This document shows, in pieces, positions 1 through 35,809 of a stretch of 35,809 nucleotides of DNA (positions within the stretch are counted from its first letter, which is position 1; every line of letters starts with the position of its first letter). The stretch lies in IMG/VR virus record IMGVR_UViG_3300030380_004648, positions 1-35,809 of that record. The stretch is one strand, 5' to 3'. The translations under genes and the position numbers were made by a program. The DNA comes from a virus. Below the pieces are notes generated by a model, which did no database searches, was not told the origin of the DNA, and worked only from the letters and a program-made list of their open reading frames with translations.

Positions 1-440
1 GCGAGTGGATCGACCTACCACGCGACGCGGACGAAATGCAAGCGGCGCAGGATAAAATTATTAAATCATCGCCGGCAGTTGATAGCGATGAGTTATTTAT
101 CGCAGATTATGACAATTGCGCCAATCTCGGAGAATATCCAAATTATGATGACCTTTACGAGTTGGCGGCGGCTTATGACGCTTGCGACGATCCGGAAATT
201 ATCGACGGCTTAATATCATACGGCTTGAATATTTCCGAATTAGCCGGCGCGGTCGATGACGTTTCAATATATGAAGATTGGGATAGTTTAGTGGAAGATT
301 ACGCGGAAATATATCACGGCGAGTTTATCAATAGCAGCTCCGGCGTATATTTTGATTATGAAGCGTTCGAGCGTGATCTAAAAATCGAATTAACTCATTT
401 TGAAACTAACGGCGGCGCGGTAGGCGTTTTAAATGCTTAA
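1..440 (+). CDS. ardA: ArdA-like antirestriction protein (5'-truncated by the window edge)
   Basis: ArdA proteins are acidic, elongated DNA mimics that bind type I restriction enzymes and protect incoming DNA. The frame is open from base 3 (E-W-I-D) and continues to the TAA at 438-440. Comparison with the full copy at 34971-35474 shows that about 21 N-terminal residues, including the family hallmark LAAYNAGNLHGEW, lie off the left edge; the internal ATG at 36 is not the true start. The visible part is rich in Asp and Glu, as expected for a DNA mimic. It differs from the right-hand copy at 14 residues. Its stop overlaps the next small gene by 8 bases. Confidence 0.85.
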   Translation, partial: EWIDLPRDADEMQAAQDKIIKSSPAVDSDELFIADYDNCANLGEYPNYDDLYELAAAYDACDDPEIIDGLISYGLNISELAGAVDDVSIYEDWDSLVEDYAEIYHGEFINSSSGVYFDYEAFERDLKIELTHFETNGGAVGVLNA

Positions 441-525
441 AATCAAAATAACCTTATTTTTAACCGGCGTTATCGTCATGGCTTGGATCATGGCGGTAAC
501 GTCTTTATTAATCTTTTTAAACTAG
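433..525 (+). CDS. 30-aa single-pass membrane microprotein overlapping the ardA stop
   Basis: ATG at 433, TAG at 523-525, out of frame with ardA and overlapping its last 8 bases, so translation is probably coupled. The peptide starts MLKIKITLFLTG and is one hydrophobic helix with a Lys-rich N-terminus and no acidic residue. The equivalent ORF at 35467-35559 keeps its length and frame although six bases differ; the changes (V/I, M/A, I/L, M/A) preserve hydrophobicity. That supports a real gene. Function is unknown; a small membrane effector is one possibility. Confidence 0.6.
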   Translation: MLKIKITLFLTGVIVMAWIMAVTSLLIFLN

Positions 526-538
526 TGGAGAAATAAAA

Positions 539-808
539 ATGAATACATTACCAATAAGCGACCTTGTTCGCTCTATTAAATACAAAGGCTATACGATAAA
601 CATCTATAAACAAGCGCCGGACTTTCCGGAAGTGTTAAATGATGATTTTAATTTTGATACTACTGAATTAGATATTTACCACTGCAAAGGCTCGTACGCT
701 TACGAGATATTAAACGGCAATAATGACGTAGAAGAATACGACGATCAGTCCATGTATGACGTCGGCGCGTGTATAGAAAACGCGAAAAAAGAAATTGATT
801 ATTATTAA
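539..808 (+). CDS. Acidic early protein of unknown function (89 aa)
   Basis: I do not recognise the family. The protein is strongly acidic (runs such as DDFNFD and DVEEYDD) with few basic residues outside the N-terminal third. The start is preceded by TGGAGAAATAAAA, with GGAG about 8 bases upstream, directly after the TAG of the 30-codon gene. A second, near-identical copy starts at 35573. Position behind ardA and the acidic composition suggest a host-takeover or anti-defence role, possibly another DNA mimic, but that is inference. Confidence 0.75.
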   Translation: MNTLPISDLVRSIKYKGYTINIYKQAPDFPEVLNDDFNFDTTELDIYHCKGSYAYEILNGNNDVEEYDDQSMYDVGACIENAKKEIDYY

Positions 809-829: not shown

Positions 830-1120
830 ATGACAAAAAAATATAAAATAAAAGAAATGTACATCAATAAATATCCCCATTTAAAGGGAGTAGTTTTTGA
901 TAGCGATGATATAGACGTTATGCAAGATATTTTATCAATAACGATGGATATAGAAACTGCCTTCGAGTTCGAGGAAATGGATTTGCAACAGCAGTGCGAA
1001 TTTATCGGGAGAAATGCAGACACTTGCGGACAAATTATAACAGTAGGTAATTGTAATAATAAATATAAATATACTGAATTCGGCGGGATAGATGAGTTCG
1101 AGGAGGTGAAAAATGATTAA
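830..1120 (+). CDS. Acidic early protein of unknown function (96 aa)
   Basis: Unrecognised. N-terminus is Lys/Tyr-rich (MTKKYKIKEMY); the rest is acidic (FDSDDIDVMQD, EFEEMD, DEFEEVKND). Three cysteines are present but no CxxC pair. The leader AACTAGCGGAGAAAACAAAA immediately before the ATG is identical to the leader of ardA at 34951-34970, showing that leader cassettes have been copied within this block. It overlaps the next gene by 8 bases. An early anti-host role is inferred only from context. Confidence 0.7.
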   Translation: MTKKYKIKEMYINKYPHLKGVVFDSDDIDVMQDILSITMDIETAFEFEEMDLQQQCEFIGRNADTCGQIITVGNCNNKYKYTEFGGIDEFEEVKND

Positions 1121-1301
1121 ACAATTAAACTTCGTAAGAAGCCAGCCAACATGGGCGCTAAAGAATATGATAAAAGCCTTATCGTCGCTTAGTGCACTTA
1201 ATACGCTCGAAGAAGATCAACGGTTATGTGCTGCCGAGATCGAATTGAAACGCCGACTAGGCAATAAATATAAACATGGAGAATATTATGACAAATATTA
1301 A
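1113..1301 (+). CDS. Small early protein of unknown function (62 aa)
   Basis: The ATG at 1113 follows a strong ribosome-binding site (GGAGGTG, 1100-1106) located inside the end of the upstream gene, so the two are translationally coupled. The protein is basic and probably helical: MIKQLNFVRSQPTWALKNMI near the N-terminus, then an acidic stretch LEEDQRLCAAEIE and a basic tail. Its 3' end overlaps the next gene by 14 bases. No family recognised. Confidence 0.65.
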   Translation: MIKQLNFVRSQPTWALKNMIKALSSLSALNTLEEDQRLCAAEIELKRRLGNKYKHGEYYDKY

Positions 1302-1881
1302 AACACAAATTGACTTCGGCGGCTTCTATCACTCAATACACAATGACGTAATAGTACGCGAAATTGAAGCCGTTATTTGCGATGATGACGGTATTATTTT
1401 TGATGATTGCGAATATGAAGTTAATTTCAGTAAAACTCATCATAATTATATCAATCATTATTGCAGGTTATTCGAAGATTATTTAATTAATGAATACGAT
1501 CTTAATATTAATTTTAAAAATCTTAATTTATGGTCGCCGCGCGAATATAATTTCGAAACTGACTCAATTACATGCGAGATCACGCCAGCCGAGCACGATA
1601 AACTGACTAATCATTTTAGAAAAGATGATGAATTTTTAGATTATCTAACCGAAGCTACTAAGTCTTACGACGGCTTTATTTCTTATTATACTATAGATGA
1701 CGCCCTGCGCGATAAAAACGGCATGCTTAGCGTCTATATATTGCGCTATCTTGCCAATAAATTCGAAGATGATGAATATCATAGTTTTTATGAATTTACT
1801 GATATTGAGTTTAAATATTTAAGAAATACATGGAACGAGTACCTAGCGGAATGTGAAAAGCAAGGCAATCTATTTGCATAA
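1288..1881 (+). CDS. Acidic early protein of unknown function (197 aa)
   Basis: I place the start at 1288 rather than the in-frame ATG at 1276, because GGAG at 1278-1281 is correctly spaced for 1288 and forms part of the upstream ATG itself. The sequence (MTNIKTQIDFGGFYHSIHND...) is rich in Asp, Glu, Asn and Tyr, with an acidic segment around residues 26-36 and no enzymatic motif I recognise. It is the largest gene of the early plus-strand block after ardA and is followed by an intrinsic terminator. Anti-defence function is plausible from neighbours, not shown. Confidence 0.7.
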   Translation: MTNIKTQIDFGGFYHSIHNDVIVREIEAVICDDDGIIFDDCEYEVNFSKTHHNYINHYCRLFEDYLINEYDLNINFKNLNLWSPREYNFETDSITCEITPAEHDKLTNHFRKDDEFLDYLTEATKSYDGFISYYTIDDALRDKNGMLSVYILRYLANKFEDDEYHSFYEFTDIEFKYLRNTWNEYLAECEKQGNLFA

Positions 1882-1979: not shown

Positions 1980-2192
1980 ATGAAACTATATCAAAATGAT
2001 AATGACGTAATATTTTTAGAAACTACTAAGCCGAAAAGATTTATCTGCTATCGAGATAATCAAATTATCGGTCAATTACGATACGATAAGCCGGTTAATA
2101 CTGTATATCAATTACGCGATGACGCGCGTTGCTGGTATGAAACGTGGCTTAAAAGAATTGATGATCGTAACGTAATAAACGGGAGTATCTAA
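1980..2192 (+). CDS. Small early protein of unknown function (70 aa)
   Basis: ATG at 1980 with GGAG (1969-1972) eight bases upstream. Mixed composition with several Arg, Lys, Tyr and Trp (RDNQIIGQLRYDKP, ARCWYETWLKRID); no domain recognised. It lies downstream of the terminator at 1897-1920, so it depends on read-through or on a weak promoter in the AT-rich 1921-1970 stretch that I could not assign. A further 25-codon ORF at 2194-2271 follows, with a GGGAG upstream; I cannot decide whether it is used. Confidence 0.6.
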   Translation: MKLYQNDNDVIFLETTKPKRFICYRDNQIIGQLRYDKPVNTVYQLRDDARCWYETWLKRIDDRNVINGSI

Positions 2193-2316: not shown

Positions 2317-2490
2317 ATGATAAAACAATTATTTGATGATGAAATATGTTGCCATTGTGGAAATGATTGCAGTATAGGATCCGGAAAATACATAAATAGA
2401 TATGAATATTATAGTGATGAAGTAGAAGGTTATGTCTGCTCGGATTGCGAAGCGGAAAACGAAAAACTCATGGAAGGAGAAATAAAATGA
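2317..2490 (+). CDS. Small zinc-ribbon protein (57 aa)
   Basis: ATG at 2317 with AAGGAG at 2304-2309. Two cysteine knuckles are visible, CCHCGNDC near residues 11-18 and CSDC at 41-44, the pattern of a treble-clef or zinc-ribbon fold. The gene ends in ATGA, overlapping the next start. Zinc ribbons of this size in phages usually bind nucleic acid or host proteins; the target here is unknown. Confidence 0.65.
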   Translation: MIKQLFDDEICCHCGNDCSIGSGKYINRYEYYSDEVEGYVCSDCEAENEKLMEGEIK

Positions 2491-2723
2491 GTAAATATAT
2501 AGATTATTATACAGACATATCGGGCTATAAAGATAAGCAAAAATCATTAAATGAATATGGTCATGAGAAACTGACCGACTTGTTAGAAGATACATTAGAA
2601 GAACTATTAGATACCAAATATATCATAGACGTAATAGGCAAGGATAGTTACTTAAAAGATAAATTCGCAGATATTCGTTTAGATATGATTGATTTAATTA
2701 CGGGAATTATAGAAAGGAAATAG
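2487..2723 (+). CDS. Helical early protein of unknown function (78 aa)
   Basis: The start at 2487 is chosen because AAGGAG (2474-2479) is correctly spaced and the ATG overlaps the zinc-ribbon stop in the classic ATGA arrangement; the longer in-frame ORF from 2445 would run into that gene. The protein (MSKYIDYYTDISGYKDKQKS...) is predicted helical with an acidic middle (LLEDTLEELLDTK). No family recognised. Confidence 0.65.
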   Translation: MSKYIDYYTDISGYKDKQKSLNEYGHEKLTDLLEDTLEELLDTKYIIDVIGKDSYLKDKFADIRLDMIDLITGIIERK

Positions 2724-2724
2724 T

Positions 2725-2853
2725 ATGCACACATTAGAAAAAATAAAAGAGATAGTAATAGAGCTATCACATAGATTAGCAGATGAATTAGATTACGAGG
2801 ACAACTTACAATCTAAACTACAAACGCTTTTAGATTATTTAGATAGAAAATAA
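2725..2853 (+). CDS. 42-aa helical microprotein, last gene of the plus-strand early block
   Basis: ATG at 2725, AAAGGAAA just upstream, one base after the previous stop. A single amphipathic Leu/Glu/Lys-rich helix (MHTLEKIKEIVIELSHRLAD...) of coiled-coil character. Its TAA lies one base from the stop of the convergent minus-strand gene, so the two operons meet tail to tail with no room for a terminator. Confidence 0.55.
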   Translation: MHTLEKIKEIVIELSHRLADELDYEDNLQSKLQTLLDYLDRK

Positions 2854-2854
2854 C

Positions 2855-3328
2855 TCACGAAATTCCGAAATAGTCCGCTAGGCTATCTAAGGCGCGTTTT
2901 AATAGCTTCATCGAAACGCGCCTACTATTATAATCTTTTTCATCTAAACTCGTACACGTACCACCCTCAATAACTACAAACTGTATTACGCGAAATAGAT
3001 CACTAGGTAATTTACGCGTCATTCGCAAAAACTCACTAAATCCGATATTGATACTTTCCGTAGAATTACCGCCGCCGTCTACGCGCACGTCGTATTTCAT
3101 TGAATTACTTTTCGCGCCTTTACTATATATAGTCAATAAATACTGCGCCGTATTGTATTGTTTACTATCGATATATCCGCGCTGGTAATAACGATCTATC
3201 AAACTTTGCGATAAGATACGCCGGCGCAATTGGCTGCCAGCCGTTAGGCCGGTCGCTTCATCGCGATAATCTTCGCCTGCTACGCGCTCGTTAGTACCGA
3301 GATCACTTCGTATTTTTGATTTACTCAT
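2855..3328 (-). CDS. Candidate late-gene regulator, last gene of the early operon (157 aa)
   Basis: The family is not certain. The C-terminal two thirds (FSEFLRMTRKLPSDLFRVIQ ... RRVSMKLLKRALDSLADYF) resembles the alphaproteobacterial DUF6456-type domain, which I recall as a putative DNA-binding module. It is the final gene of the replication operon, the slot used by Q, ArpU or RinA-type late regulators in other temperate phages. The start at 3328 overlaps the upstream stop (ATGA), so translation is coupled. The late promoter at 34300-34328 has a terminator behind it, which would call for an antiterminator. The regulatory role is inference. Confidence 0.6.
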   Translation of the reverse strand: MSKSKIRSDLGTNERVAGEDYRDEATGLTAGSQLRRRILSQSLIDRYYQRGYIDSKQYNTAQYLLTIYSKGAKSNSMKYDVRVDGGGNSTESINIGFSEFLRMTRKLPSDLFRVIQFVVIEGGTCTSLDEKDYNSRRVSMKLLKRALDSLADYFGIS

Positions 3329-3669
3329 TTCTGCGGCGGCTTATTAAGTAAATCCTTCCAATCAATATCGCCTACCGTTTTCTCGGCTTTATCAGTCGCA
3401 AGTGCTCCAGCAAGCGCTAAATAGTTTATAGCGTCTACAAGGCTATCTTCGTCGTATTTATTTAAATCTAAGCGTGCTAACTTTAACTCGACCATAAGCA
3501 TGGCGCACTGATAAGGCGTATGCTTTTCACCATGCGACTGGGTGAAACGTGCCGACATACGATCAAATAAATCTATATATGATCCATATTCTCGACCGCG
3601 TAAATTCAATAGATGATCGGCTTGTTTTAATATAGTGCTAGGTTTCCTAGAATGGGACGTCATCGTCAT
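3325..3669 (-). CDS. DUF6378-like phage protein (114 aa)
   Basis: The pattern ILKQADHLLNLRGREYGSY ... YQCAMLMVELKLARL ... DSLVDAINYLALAG matches what I know of DUF6378, an all-helical phage family thought to be related to MazG-type nucleotide pyrophosphohydrolases. A nucleotide-pool role is therefore possible but unproven. I place the start at 3669: AAGGAG (codons 2-3 of the longer ORF from 3687) is correctly spaced for it. It overlaps the upstream gene by 23 bases and its stop overlaps the next start. Confidence 0.75.
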   Translation of the reverse strand: MTMTSHSRKPSTILKQADHLLNLRGREYGSYIDLFDRMSARFTQSHGEKHTPYQCAMLMVELKLARLDLNKYDEDSLVDAINYLALAGALATDKAEKTVGDIDWKDLLNKPPQK

Positions 3670-4243
3670 AGAAATTTTCTCCTTCATTTTGTGGTTGATT
3701 AACTTCGATTATTTTCGGCGCAGTTTTAAATTTTTTCTCAACTGTTACTTTTACCTTTTCATAATCTTCGAGTATTACAGCTATCTCCGCTAAGCAGTAA
3801 ACAGCAGTAAGGTTCTTATAAATTCTTTTGGCGTTATCTAATTCTTTGCAATCCTTAACAATGCCATAACGACTCGGCGGTAATTTACCGTCGACCGTCC
3901 ATATATCCGGCTTAGGCACTAAATCATTATCTTTAACGAATTGGGCCATAGCGTTTAATCCGCGCTTGCATATCTCGGATCGCTTTTGCAGCATTTCTAT
4001 TGACTCTTTATCCTCGCCGGACGTTTGAATACAATATTTAAATTTACCTAGCGCGATATGAAATCTTTTCGCTATATCATCATCGACTAATTCTTGCAAC
4101 TTGCCATGCCCGTATTGACGATCCAATTCTTCTTGGCACTGCAAGTAATCTTCTATTACGTGCCAGAACATTTGAGTCTTGTAAGCGGCTACTCCGATAT
4201 ACGAAGAATTACGATTAAAAAAATCATATAAATTCATTGTCAT
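3647..4243 (-). CDS. Helical replication-operon protein with an SSB-like C-terminal tip (198 aa)
   Basis: Most of the protein reads as alpha-helical (for example AYKTQMFWHVIEDYLQCQEE) with no OB-fold pattern. The last residues, NFYDDDVPF, are almost the same as the acidic C-terminal tip of bacterial SSB (DDDIPF), the docking peptide for PriA, RecO, RecQ, ExoI and HolC. It sits between the primase-helicase and a nucleotide-metabolism-like gene. AGGAG lies seven bases before the start, which overlaps the previous stop by four bases. I infer a single-strand-DNA or replisome-recruitment function. Confidence 0.7.
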   Translation of the reverse strand: MTMNLYDFFNRNSSYIGVAAYKTQMFWHVIEDYLQCQEELDRQYGHGKLQELVDDDIAKRFHIALGKFKYCIQTSGEDKESIEMLQKRSEICKRGLNAMAQFVKDNDLVPKPDIWTVDGKLPPSRYGIVKDCKELDNAKRIYKNLTAVYCLAEIAVILEDYEKVKVTVEKKFKTAPKIIEVNQPQNEGENFYDDDVPF

Positions 4244-8390: not shown

Positions 8391-8407
8391 TACGAATAAT
8401 TATTCAC
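8386..8407. promoter_or_regulatory. Operator palindrome in the primary immunity region
   Basis: GAATAATTATTC at 8394-8405 is a perfect 12-bp palindrome. It is embedded in a longer inverted pair, GTGAATA (8386-8392) and TATTCAC (8401-8407). Related sites occur at 10596, 11738, 34330 and 34897, always in regulatory regions. Likely bound by one of the phage HTH repressors. Confidence 0.7.
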
Positions 8408-10793: not shown

Positions 10794-10836
10794 GGAGGGG
10801 TGGCTGAGTGGTTGAAAGCACCGGTCTTGAAAACCG
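10794..10836 (+). other. attP core: 5' half of tRNA-Ser(UGA)
   Basis: Forty-three bases read as the 5' half of a tRNA-Ser: acceptor strand GGAGGGG, TG, D stem GCT/AGC with its loop, then an anticodon arm CCGGT-CTTGAAA-ACCG with anticodon TGA. Similarity stops at the last anticodon-stem pair, and no variable arm, T-arm or acceptor 3' strand follows, so it is not a functional tRNA. It lies 280 bases from int. This is the expected identity segment for integration into a host tRNA-Ser gene, here at the 5' half, so the phage supplies the new 5' end. Confidence 0.82.
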
Positions 10837-32088: not shown

Positions 32089-32361
32089 CTATTTCTTTTT
32101 GTTACGATTTGCAAAGGCTCTCGCCTGCTCTTTTGATGAGAATCCCCAAGCGTTCAACGCTAGTTTCAATCGTGTAGGACGCCCCTTCTCATCTTTCAGA
32201 GCGCCTTTCATACCACCAAAACGAGCGGCGAAACTAACGCGACGTGGACTTGTGCCAGTCTTAAGTGGTCTTTTAAGATTGCTGCCTTCTTTTCTCTTAA
32301 AGAAATCACGACCTTCTTGATTGAGTCCGCCTTTTGGGTTTTGAAATTTCTTTGCTACCAT
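32089..32361 (-). CDS. DUF6321-like basic protein (90 aa)
   Basis: Sequence GGLNQEGRDFFKRKEGSNLK, RRVSFAARFGGMKGALKDEK and GRPTRLKLALNAWGF matches my memory of the DUF6321 phage family, usually found near terminases. Strongly basic. AGGAG precedes the start, right after a long inverted repeat in the leader. Confidence 0.65.
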   Translation of the reverse strand: MVAKKFQNPKGGLNQEGRDFFKRKEGSNLKRPLKTGTSPRRVSFAARFGGMKGALKDEKGRPTRLKLALNAWGFSSKEQARAFANRNKKK

Positions 32362-34887: not shown

Positions 34888-34916
34888 TTGACTTACGAAT
34901 AATTATTCATTATAAA
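34888..34916 (+). promoter_or_regulatory. Near-consensus early promoter of the ardA block with operator in its spacer
   Basis: TTGACT (34888-34893), exactly 17 bases, TATAAA (34911-34916): each box matches at five of six bases. The palindrome GAATAATTATTC (34897-34908) lies inside the spacer, so a bound repressor would exclude RNA polymerase. Transcription would start near 34923 and yield a leader ending in GGAG before ATG 34971. Confidence 0.78.
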
Positions 34917-34970
34917 TTGTATAAGAAAGTTTTACACTTTTATTATTATTAAACTAGCGGAGAAAACAAA

Positions 34971-35474
34971 ATGAACAATACACCGAAAATTTGGCTTGGC
35001 TGCTTAGCCGCCTACAATGCCGGCAATTTGCACGGCGAGTGGATCGACCTACCACGCGACGCGGACGAAATGCAAGCGGCGCAGGATAAGATTATTAAAT
35101 CATCGCCGGCAGTTGATAGCGAAGAATTATTTGTCGCAGATTATGACAACTGCGCCAATCTTGGAGAATATCCAAATTATGATGACCTTTTCGAGTTGGC
35201 GGCGGCTTATGACGCTTGCGACGATCCGGAAATAATCGACGGCTTAATATCATTAGGCTTGAATATTTCCGAACTAGCCGGCGCGGTCGATGACGTTTCA
35301 ATATATAAAGATTGGGATAGTTTAGTAGAAGATCACGCCGAAGTGTATTACGGCGAATTTATCAATAGTAGAGCCGGCGTATATTTTGATTATGAAGCGT
35401 TCGAGCGTGATTTAAACATTGAATTAACCCATTTTGAAACTAAGAGCGGCGCGGTAGGCGTTTTACATGCTTAA
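34971..35474 (+). CDS. ardA: ArdA-like antirestriction protein (167 aa, full length)
   Basis: The N-terminus PKIWLGCLAAYNAGNLHGEW is the hallmark of ArdA, which mimics B-form DNA and blocks type I restriction-modification enzymes. Length (about 165) and strong acidity fit. It is the first gene after the operator-controlled early promoter, right for protection at infection. GGAG lies eight bases upstream. Bases from 35035 onward have a diverged copy at the left end of the window. Its stop overlaps a membrane microgene. Confidence 0.9.
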   Translation: MNNTPKIWLGCLAAYNAGNLHGEWIDLPRDADEMQAAQDKIIKSSPAVDSEELFVADYDNCANLGEYPNYDDLFELAAAYDACDDPEIIDGLISLGLNISELAGAVDDVSIYKDWDSLVEDHAEVYYGEFINSRAGVYFDYEAFERDLNIELTHFETKSGAVGVLHA

Positions 35475-35559
35475 AATCAAAATAACCTTATTTTTAACCG
35501 GCGTTATCATCGCGGCTTGGCTCGCGGCGGTAACGTCTTTATTAATCTTTTTAAACTAG
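35467..35559 (+). CDS. 30-aa membrane microprotein overlapping ardA (second copy)
   Basis: Same start context, length and frame as 433-525. The core reads ITLFLTGVIIAAWLAAVTSL, a single transmembrane helix. Five of 30 residues differ from the left copy, all hydrophobic replacements. Conservation of an open frame across the divergence argues for translation. Confidence 0.6.
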   Translation: MLKIKITLFLTGVIIAAWLAAVTSLLIFLN

Positions 35560-35572
35560 CGGAGAAATAAAG

Positions 35573-35809
35573 ATGAATACATTACCAACAAGCGACCTTG
35601 TTCGCTCTCTTAAATATAAAGGGTATACAATAAACATTTATAAACAAGCGCCGGACTTTCCGGAAGTGTTAAACGATGATTTTAATTTTGATACTACTGA
35701 ATTAGATATTTATCACTGTAAAGGCTCTTACTCTTACGAGATATTAAACGGCAATAATGACGTAGAAGAATACGACGATCAGTCCATGTATGACGTCGGC
35801 GCGTGTATA
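35573..35809 (+). CDS. Acidic early protein, second copy, truncated by the right edge
   Basis: Counterpart of the 89-aa gene at 539-808; the window ends after 79 codons. Differences in the visible part are few (for example I/T, I/L, A/S). The leader AACTAGCGGAGAAATAAAG differs from the left copy at two bases. Role unknown, as for the left copy. Confidence 0.7.
   Translation, partial: MNTLPTSDLVRSLKYKGYTINIYKQAPDFPEVLNDDFNFDTTELDIYHCKGSYSYEILNGNNDVEEYDDQSMYDVGACI

Follow-up and report, generated by a model that had tools for sequence, protein, structure and literature searches.

Whether the block of small, mostly acidic genes led by ardA in this phage is an anti-defence island, and whether its acidic members share the DNA mimicry of ArdA, are the questions that this locus raises. 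We addressed them in the window, i.e., the whole stretch of 35,809 nucleotides analyzed (IMG/VR virus record IMGVR_UViG_3300030380_004648). A sequence-only reading had proposed that ardA, close to the right-hand end, heads about ten small genes, several of them strongly acidic and in one orientation with overlapping ends, and that the block continues through the left-hand end to 2853 if the genome is circular. The acidic genes 539, 830 and 1288 (genes are named here by their start positions) were suggested to be new inhibitors of restriction, CRISPR or other defences, acting like ArdA by DNA mimicry and belonging to no recognized family. The features of the block are collected in Table 1.

The phage, its repeated ends and ardA

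The window represents a 35.8-kb temperate phage with a portal gene (phrog_1216, E 1e-145) as well as terminase, primase/helicase, integrase and repressor-like genes, and it shares the order of terminase, small genes and primase with Curvibacter phage PCA1. No tRNA genes were found in the window. Beside the integrase, 43 bases (10794-10836) resemble the 5' half of a tRNA-Ser gene, for which a full tRNA was not found; this is a likely attachment site. The protein encoded at 3325-3687 is a DUF6378 protein, for which the PHROGs label phosphofructokinase is probably wrong.

Positions 1-775 were found to be an ungapped repeat of positions 35035-35809, with 93.8% identity and reaching exactly to both contig ends. 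The 775 bases of this overlap contain 48 differences, several of them amino-acid-changing, and the overlap is bordered by exactly 55 identical bases at its head and 77 at its tail. Such an overlap is expected where a circular or circularly permuted genome has been closed through a strain variant. Since the ends repeat each other, the ardA block (34971-35809) runs on from about 776, to 2853, as had been foreseen for a circular genome. The assemblies of two relatives, L005 and L011, likewise break within ardA. As these contigs also end in ardA, strain variation at this gene seems to split assemblies. It appears most improbable that ardA-539 is truly duplicated in tandem within a single genome, which would then have two copies of ArdA: the number of differences between the end copies, and their effect on amino acids, would suit a duplication, but this would require both contig ends to coincide by chance, with a match that is exact to both of them and with identical bases at either edge. 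Moreover, an intermediate ardA is present in L005, and two ardA copies were seen in no relative.

The claim that ardA heads the block was confirmed. Its product gave a full-length match to PF07275 (E 2.3e-26; 93.7 bits against a cut-off of 27; positions 1-153 of 155), matched phrog_2059 (anti-restriction) and aligned with the solved relative ArdA 2w82 (E 1.3e-6, residues 6-162). Its acidity and length are those expected of an ArdA, i.e., strongly acidic and about 165 aa. By homology, the product is shown to be an ArdA, a predicted inhibitor of type I restriction.

Table 1. Features of the ardA-led block and its control region (window coordinates; net, net charge)
Feature	Position	Strand	Remarks
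Promoter-like TTGACT-N17-TATAAA upstream of ardA	34888..34916	+	read from sequence; identical in L042
Operator-like palindrome ACGAATAATTATTCAT in promoter spacer	34895..34910	.	unchanged in L042
Leader AAACTAGCGGAGAAA, ribosome-binding site, before ardA	34951..34965	+	conserved
ardA, anti-restriction DNA mimic (predicted), full length	34971..35474	+	167 aa, pI 4.05, net -27; PF07275
539 strain variant, 3' cut, other contig end	35573..35809	+	end repeat
ardA second reading, 5' cut, strain variant of same gene	3..440	+	93.8% ungapped end match; dN/dS 0.27
Terminator-like hairpin right after ardA, under 30-codon ORF 433-525	466..503	+	16 pairs
539, acidic orphan	539..808	+	89 aa, net -11; 93% identical in L011
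830, acidic orphan	830..1120	+	96 aa, net -10; unrelated acidic 70-aa gene in L011 slot
1113, basic	1113..1301	+	62 aa; 92% identical in L011
1288, acidic, member of widespread family	1288..1881	+	197 aa; phrog_37559/phrog_8431
1980, basic	1980..2192	+	70 aa; protein identical in L011
Remnant of 66-aa gene, whole in L011	2194-2250 (about)		about 147 bp deleted in window
2317, acidic, cysteine pairs (zinc-ribbon-like)	2317..2490	+	57 aa; from sequence, Pfam/PHROG matches weak only
2487, acidic	2487..2723	+	78 aa; different acidic 64-aa gene in L011 slot
2725, acidic, last block gene	2725..2853	+	42 aa

Composition, control and exchange of the block

Eight convincing genes follow ardA. All of them are on the + strand, and most overlap or adjoin their neighbours. 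Net charges per 100 aa were -16.2 for ArdA, -12.4 for 539, -10.4 for 830, -11.7 for 1288, -15.8 for 2317, -9.5 for 2725 and -7.7 for 2487, with 1113 (+6.5) and 1980 (+2.9) being basic. Values below -8 were obtained for six of the nine block genes as against 2 of the 29 genes elsewhere in the window (Fisher p = 0.0007). The description of several acidic genes in one orientation with overlapping ends was borne out. The figure of about ten small genes is to be lowered to eight after ardA, with ORF 433-525 being more likely a hairpin (see below). Between copies or relatives, dN/dS ranged from 0.08 to 0.38 for ardA, 539, 1113 and 1288 (for 539, 0.27 against L011 and 0.08 between the contig ends) and was 0 for 1980, so that purifying selection on these genes is visible.

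Apart from ardA, Pfam, PHROG and PADLOC assigned no function to the block genes, and a PADLOC scan of ten block and relative genes gave no match of note. No Pfam, PHROG or phage relative of 539 was found beyond its own phage group; the same holds for relatives of 830, for which a single-sequence scan confirmed none. Given that neither gene has relatives outside the phage group, acidity is all the evidence that they offer, and both are anti-defence candidates by company and charge. Gene 539 was also considered as a short member of the phrog_6186 type, a family found near gene 1288, and this assignment was rejected (hhalign probability 0.1%).

Copies of the operator-like palindrome ACGAATAATTATTCAT with at most one mismatch were located at 8392, 10594 (upstream of the integrase), 11736 (upstream of a repressor-like gene) and 34328 (between the terminase genes). 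At up to three mismatches, the window contained 16 strand-matches, compared with a mean of 2.05 and a largest value of 7 in shuffled sequence. Including the copy at 34895, the five near-identical palindromes, of the form ACGAATAATTATTCRT, are probably phage repressor operators. As one copy lies in the promoter spacer and others lie by the repressor and integrase genes, it is likely, judging from these consensus matches, that the block is under repressor control.

The hairpin region following ardA has a second copy at 35467-35559. The stem is followed by a T-rich tail, with folding energies of -21.8 to -23.0 kcal/mol in four sequences. The 30-codon ORF 433-525 is retained in all four of the sequences, and between the two copies its dS was 0 and its dN 0.09, i.e., there was no synonymous change. 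Because the differences between the two window copies affect both arms of the stem and include no synonymous change, this element is more likely a terminator or attenuator than a gene, to judge from the few sequences at hand. A hairpin of this kind may be mistaken for the gene of a 30-aa membrane peptide.

The block is a variable region. Outside the block, the window and its relative L013 are collinear over 12,443 bp at 93.8% identity, and within the block L013 carries three replaced segments: different acidic genes are present at 830 and 2487, and a whole gene stands where the window has the remnant at 2194-2250. In the relative L042, alignment with the window extends to 34974 (L042 5284), at the ardA start codon, and resumes at 431 (L042 5617). 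Between the conserved leader and the next conserved segment, the ardA frame has been swapped for an unrelated acidic gene of 114 aa. A second difference between L042 and the window, at L042:2201-2404, lies near window position 32104, between terminase and portal.

Further copies of the leader AAACTAGCGGAGAAA are present at 519-533, 810-824 and 35553-35567, and 34940-34974 and 799-833 form a near-identical repeat of 35 nt. In the first three exchanged slots, including those of L011 and L042, the genes are preceded by AAACTAGCGGAGAAA or a close form of it, and the gene in the last exchanged slot is preceded by a conserved GGAGAAATAAA site. A search of viral contigs with the leader motif gave mostly unrelated chance matches, which were used as controls, but yielded L042. 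These comparisons support the view that the block acts as an anti-defence locus open to exchange, remodelled gene by gene in sister phages.

The L042 replacement protein belongs to phrog_10208/12228 (PHROG function: unknown), with at least 516 related viral contigs. It contains 27 acidic and 11 basic residues, and the median for its family is -13.8 charges per 100 aa. The predicted structure (pLDDT 94.1) is acidic and all-helical, and its best match among solved structures was T7 Ocr (6r9b_G; Z 6.9, rmsd 4.1, 96 residues aligned; next Z 3.9), a score to be read with the caveat that, for helical proteins, Z values under about 13 can reflect a common arrangement. Ocr had been suspected from the sequence of the protein ahead of the structure search. 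Foldseek with the same model gave nothing significant, and Ocr was not among its listed matches. None of 37 family members had a Pfam Ocr match, hhalign of the family against Ocr gave probabilities of 0.4% and below, and a sequence search of solved structures with the family gave no match. In view of the missing sequence support, the blank Foldseek result and the Z score of 6.9, we therefore call this protein Ocr-like and not Ocr; on the strength of the model, it is a predicted Ocr-like DNA mimic in the ardA slot.

The gene 1288 family and its neighbours

By profile comparison, gene 1288 matched phrog_37559 and phrog_8431, and its family has members on at least 279 viral contigs as well as at 21 loci in bacterial genomes. 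A single-sequence scan confirmed no relatives of gene 1288, and a profile was needed to reveal the family. The sequence-only reading, which had recognized no family for 539, 830 or 1288, was thus correct for the two orphans and not for 1288. The PHROG label is unknown function, and in the literature searched no paper names the PHROG numbers 37559/8431 or 10208/12228. A plasmid search returned no records for gene 1288 and four weak ones for the L042 gene.

Members of the family share the motifs F[GS]GFYxSIH and SPREYNFxTD, within a protein in which G12, Y14, S83, P84, Y87, N88 and D92 are invariant. Across 62 dereplicated members, the median was -10 charges per 100 aa, compared with +1.1 in neighbouring genes, and 95% of the members fell below -5. 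The model of gene 1288 has an alpha/beta fold (pLDDT 86.8). It had no significant match among solved structures and fold libraries (best Z 4.0, LINE-1 ORF1p domain), matched none of the known DNA mimics and, among viral models, found its own family only; a sequence search of solved structures with the family gave no match. The invariant residues speak for a surface with specific binding and not for charge alone, and the motifs would be as compatible with an enzyme or a specific binder as with an inhibitor. The proposal that the acidic neighbours are ArdA-like DNA mimics, for which structure prediction had been put forward as a check, was not sustained: gene 1288 is set apart by its predicted alpha/beta fold and invariant motifs, with no known mimic matched, acidity is all that 539 and 830 offer, and the block includes two basic genes.

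ArdA adjoins the gene 1288 family in four lineages, i.e., in the window and L011; in L072/L074/L075/L078, where the genes are divergent and about 550 bp apart; in Aquamicrobium L137, with ArdA 48 bp upstream on the same strand (PF07275, 4e-30); and in Draconibacterium L140, on the same strand at about 380 bp (PF07275, 8e-8). An Ocr-like gene was found near gene 1288 relatives in L056, L066, L105 and L123, and also in Lactococcus phage AM9, and the same pairing was met in L187, L214 and L232 starting from the Ocr-like side. ArdA and an Ocr-like gene occurred together in no gene 1288 locus; ArdA was present in none of 28 control contigs and none of 48 Ocr-like contigs. Further ArdA neighbours were counted at 3 of 61 loci (p = 0.006) and Ocr-like neighbours at 4 of 62 (p = 0.0005), p values for which the background was set as high as 0.6% per locus, with rates taken from small controls. 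Most gene 1288 relatives have neither gene nearby.

A third acidic family, phrog_6186 (L064:4045-4602), recurs beside the gene 1288 family in L061, L064, L067 and L105. In a Muribaculaceae genome, L148:4207-8975 comprises a run of very acidic genes (net charge to -43), among them a relative of gene 1288 and the gene of a DUF7222 protein.

We infer that gene 1288 is a good anti-defence candidate, which would have a protein target of its own and not be a plain charge mimic.

Reading of the block and comparison with known systems

Taken together, the data make it probable that the block is an ArdA-led, modular anti-restriction operon of a temperate phage, under repressor control and holding a DNA mimic as its first gene. 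In this podovirus-like phage, the block would be read rightwards from a single promoter with a repressor-type operator in its spacer, and would probably not be expressed in the lysogen, with expression starting upon infection or induction. The product of the first gene would act as a DNA mimic and occupy enzymes of type I restriction and of the BREX type, this product being ArdA by homology and, in L042, an Ocr-shaped protein by predicted structure. The downstream genes may be regarded as cassettes, exchanged between relatives at gene boundaries; the exchange itself is shown, and the repeated leader with its ribosome-binding site may offer the short homology for it. Gene 1288 would supply a second anti-defence protein, travelling with ArdA or an Ocr-like gene, with 539 and 830 as putative acidic accessory genes. 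The idea of an anti-defence island is supported by the exchange of ArdA for an Ocr-like protein in L042 and by the recurrence of the gene 1288 family beside both, across phages that are not related to one another as well as bacterial genomes, and falls short where it extended mimicry to the acidic neighbours.

Early and accessory regions made up of small host-takeover genes are common in phages, and it is conceivable, though we lean against it, that only ArdA is an anti-defence protein here. The rest would then be ordinary early or accessory genes, such as inhibitors of host polymerase, cell division or nucleases, whose acidity stems from low-GC small phage proteins. This would suit 539, 830, 1113 and 1980, which have no link to any defence gene, as well as the two basic genes, but not the concentration of acidity in the block (Fisher test above) or its conservation across the gene 1288 family. 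Most gene 1288 relatives do lie among unannotated small genes, yet ArdA or an Ocr-like gene recurs beside the family, and an Ocr-like gene fills the ardA slot in L042. It is unlikely that all of the acidic neighbours are ArdA-like DNA mimics. Net charges of -10 to -16 per 100 aa in an ArdA neighbourhood point in that direction; the alpha/beta model of gene 1288, its seven invariant residues and the lack of a match to known mimics argue against it, as DNA mimics usually conserve charge and not sequence, and 539 and 830 have too few relatives for modelling.

Building on the reading as a modular anti-restriction operon, we tentatively suggest a broader one, which is possible and no firmer than that: the gene 1288 family may be an undescribed, widespread anti-defence class that partners DNA mimics, phrog_10208 may be a large Ocr-type family unrecognized by sequence, and phages may alternate ArdA and Ocr-type proteins in one slot. 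Such an alternation would perhaps be due to differing host restriction systems or to Ocr-sensing, PARIS-like defences; PARIS has been reported to sense Ocr (PMC12839542), which could, speculatively, explain why phages alternate mimics. At this locus, two DNA-mimic-like proteins with no relationship to one another appear to take each other's place in one slot, and gene 1288 represents a widespread acidic family whose gene neighbourhoods suggest a part in counter-defence. Should the Ocr-like family be confirmed, the range of Ocr-type mimics would widen from T7-like phages to at least 516 environmental viral contigs, and the block and this family would supply ready test candidates.

Islands of the ArdA type are an already known kind, and phages are known carriers of ArdA. 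The ArdA of the window resembles Tn916 Orf18 (PDB 2w82) in its full-length domain, size and strong acidity, but heads a phage operon, whereas the known Tn916-type ArdA belongs to a conjugative element; its identity to the closest phage copies found outside its own group is about 35-39%. The Ocr-like gene is that of L042 and is absent from the window itself. Its product is like T7 Ocr (gene 0.3) in size, acidity and all-helical model, but has no detectable sequence similarity to it and a net charge of -16 compared with -28. Ocr is described in PMC7261183 as inhibiting type I restriction and BREX, and anti-restriction proteins lacking sequence similarity have been found in bulk by structure (PMC10799925). 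Pinilla-Redondo et al., 2020 (PMC7648647), reported clusters in which genes for anti-restriction and anti-CRISPR functions lie amid small ORFs of unknown function. The window block is similar to these clusters in being a variable region with a known anti-restriction gene amid small uncharacterized ORFs, differs in having no recognized anti-CRISPR or Aca gene, and goes beyond them in two mimic-like genes exchanged slot-for-slot and in a recurring acidic partner family.
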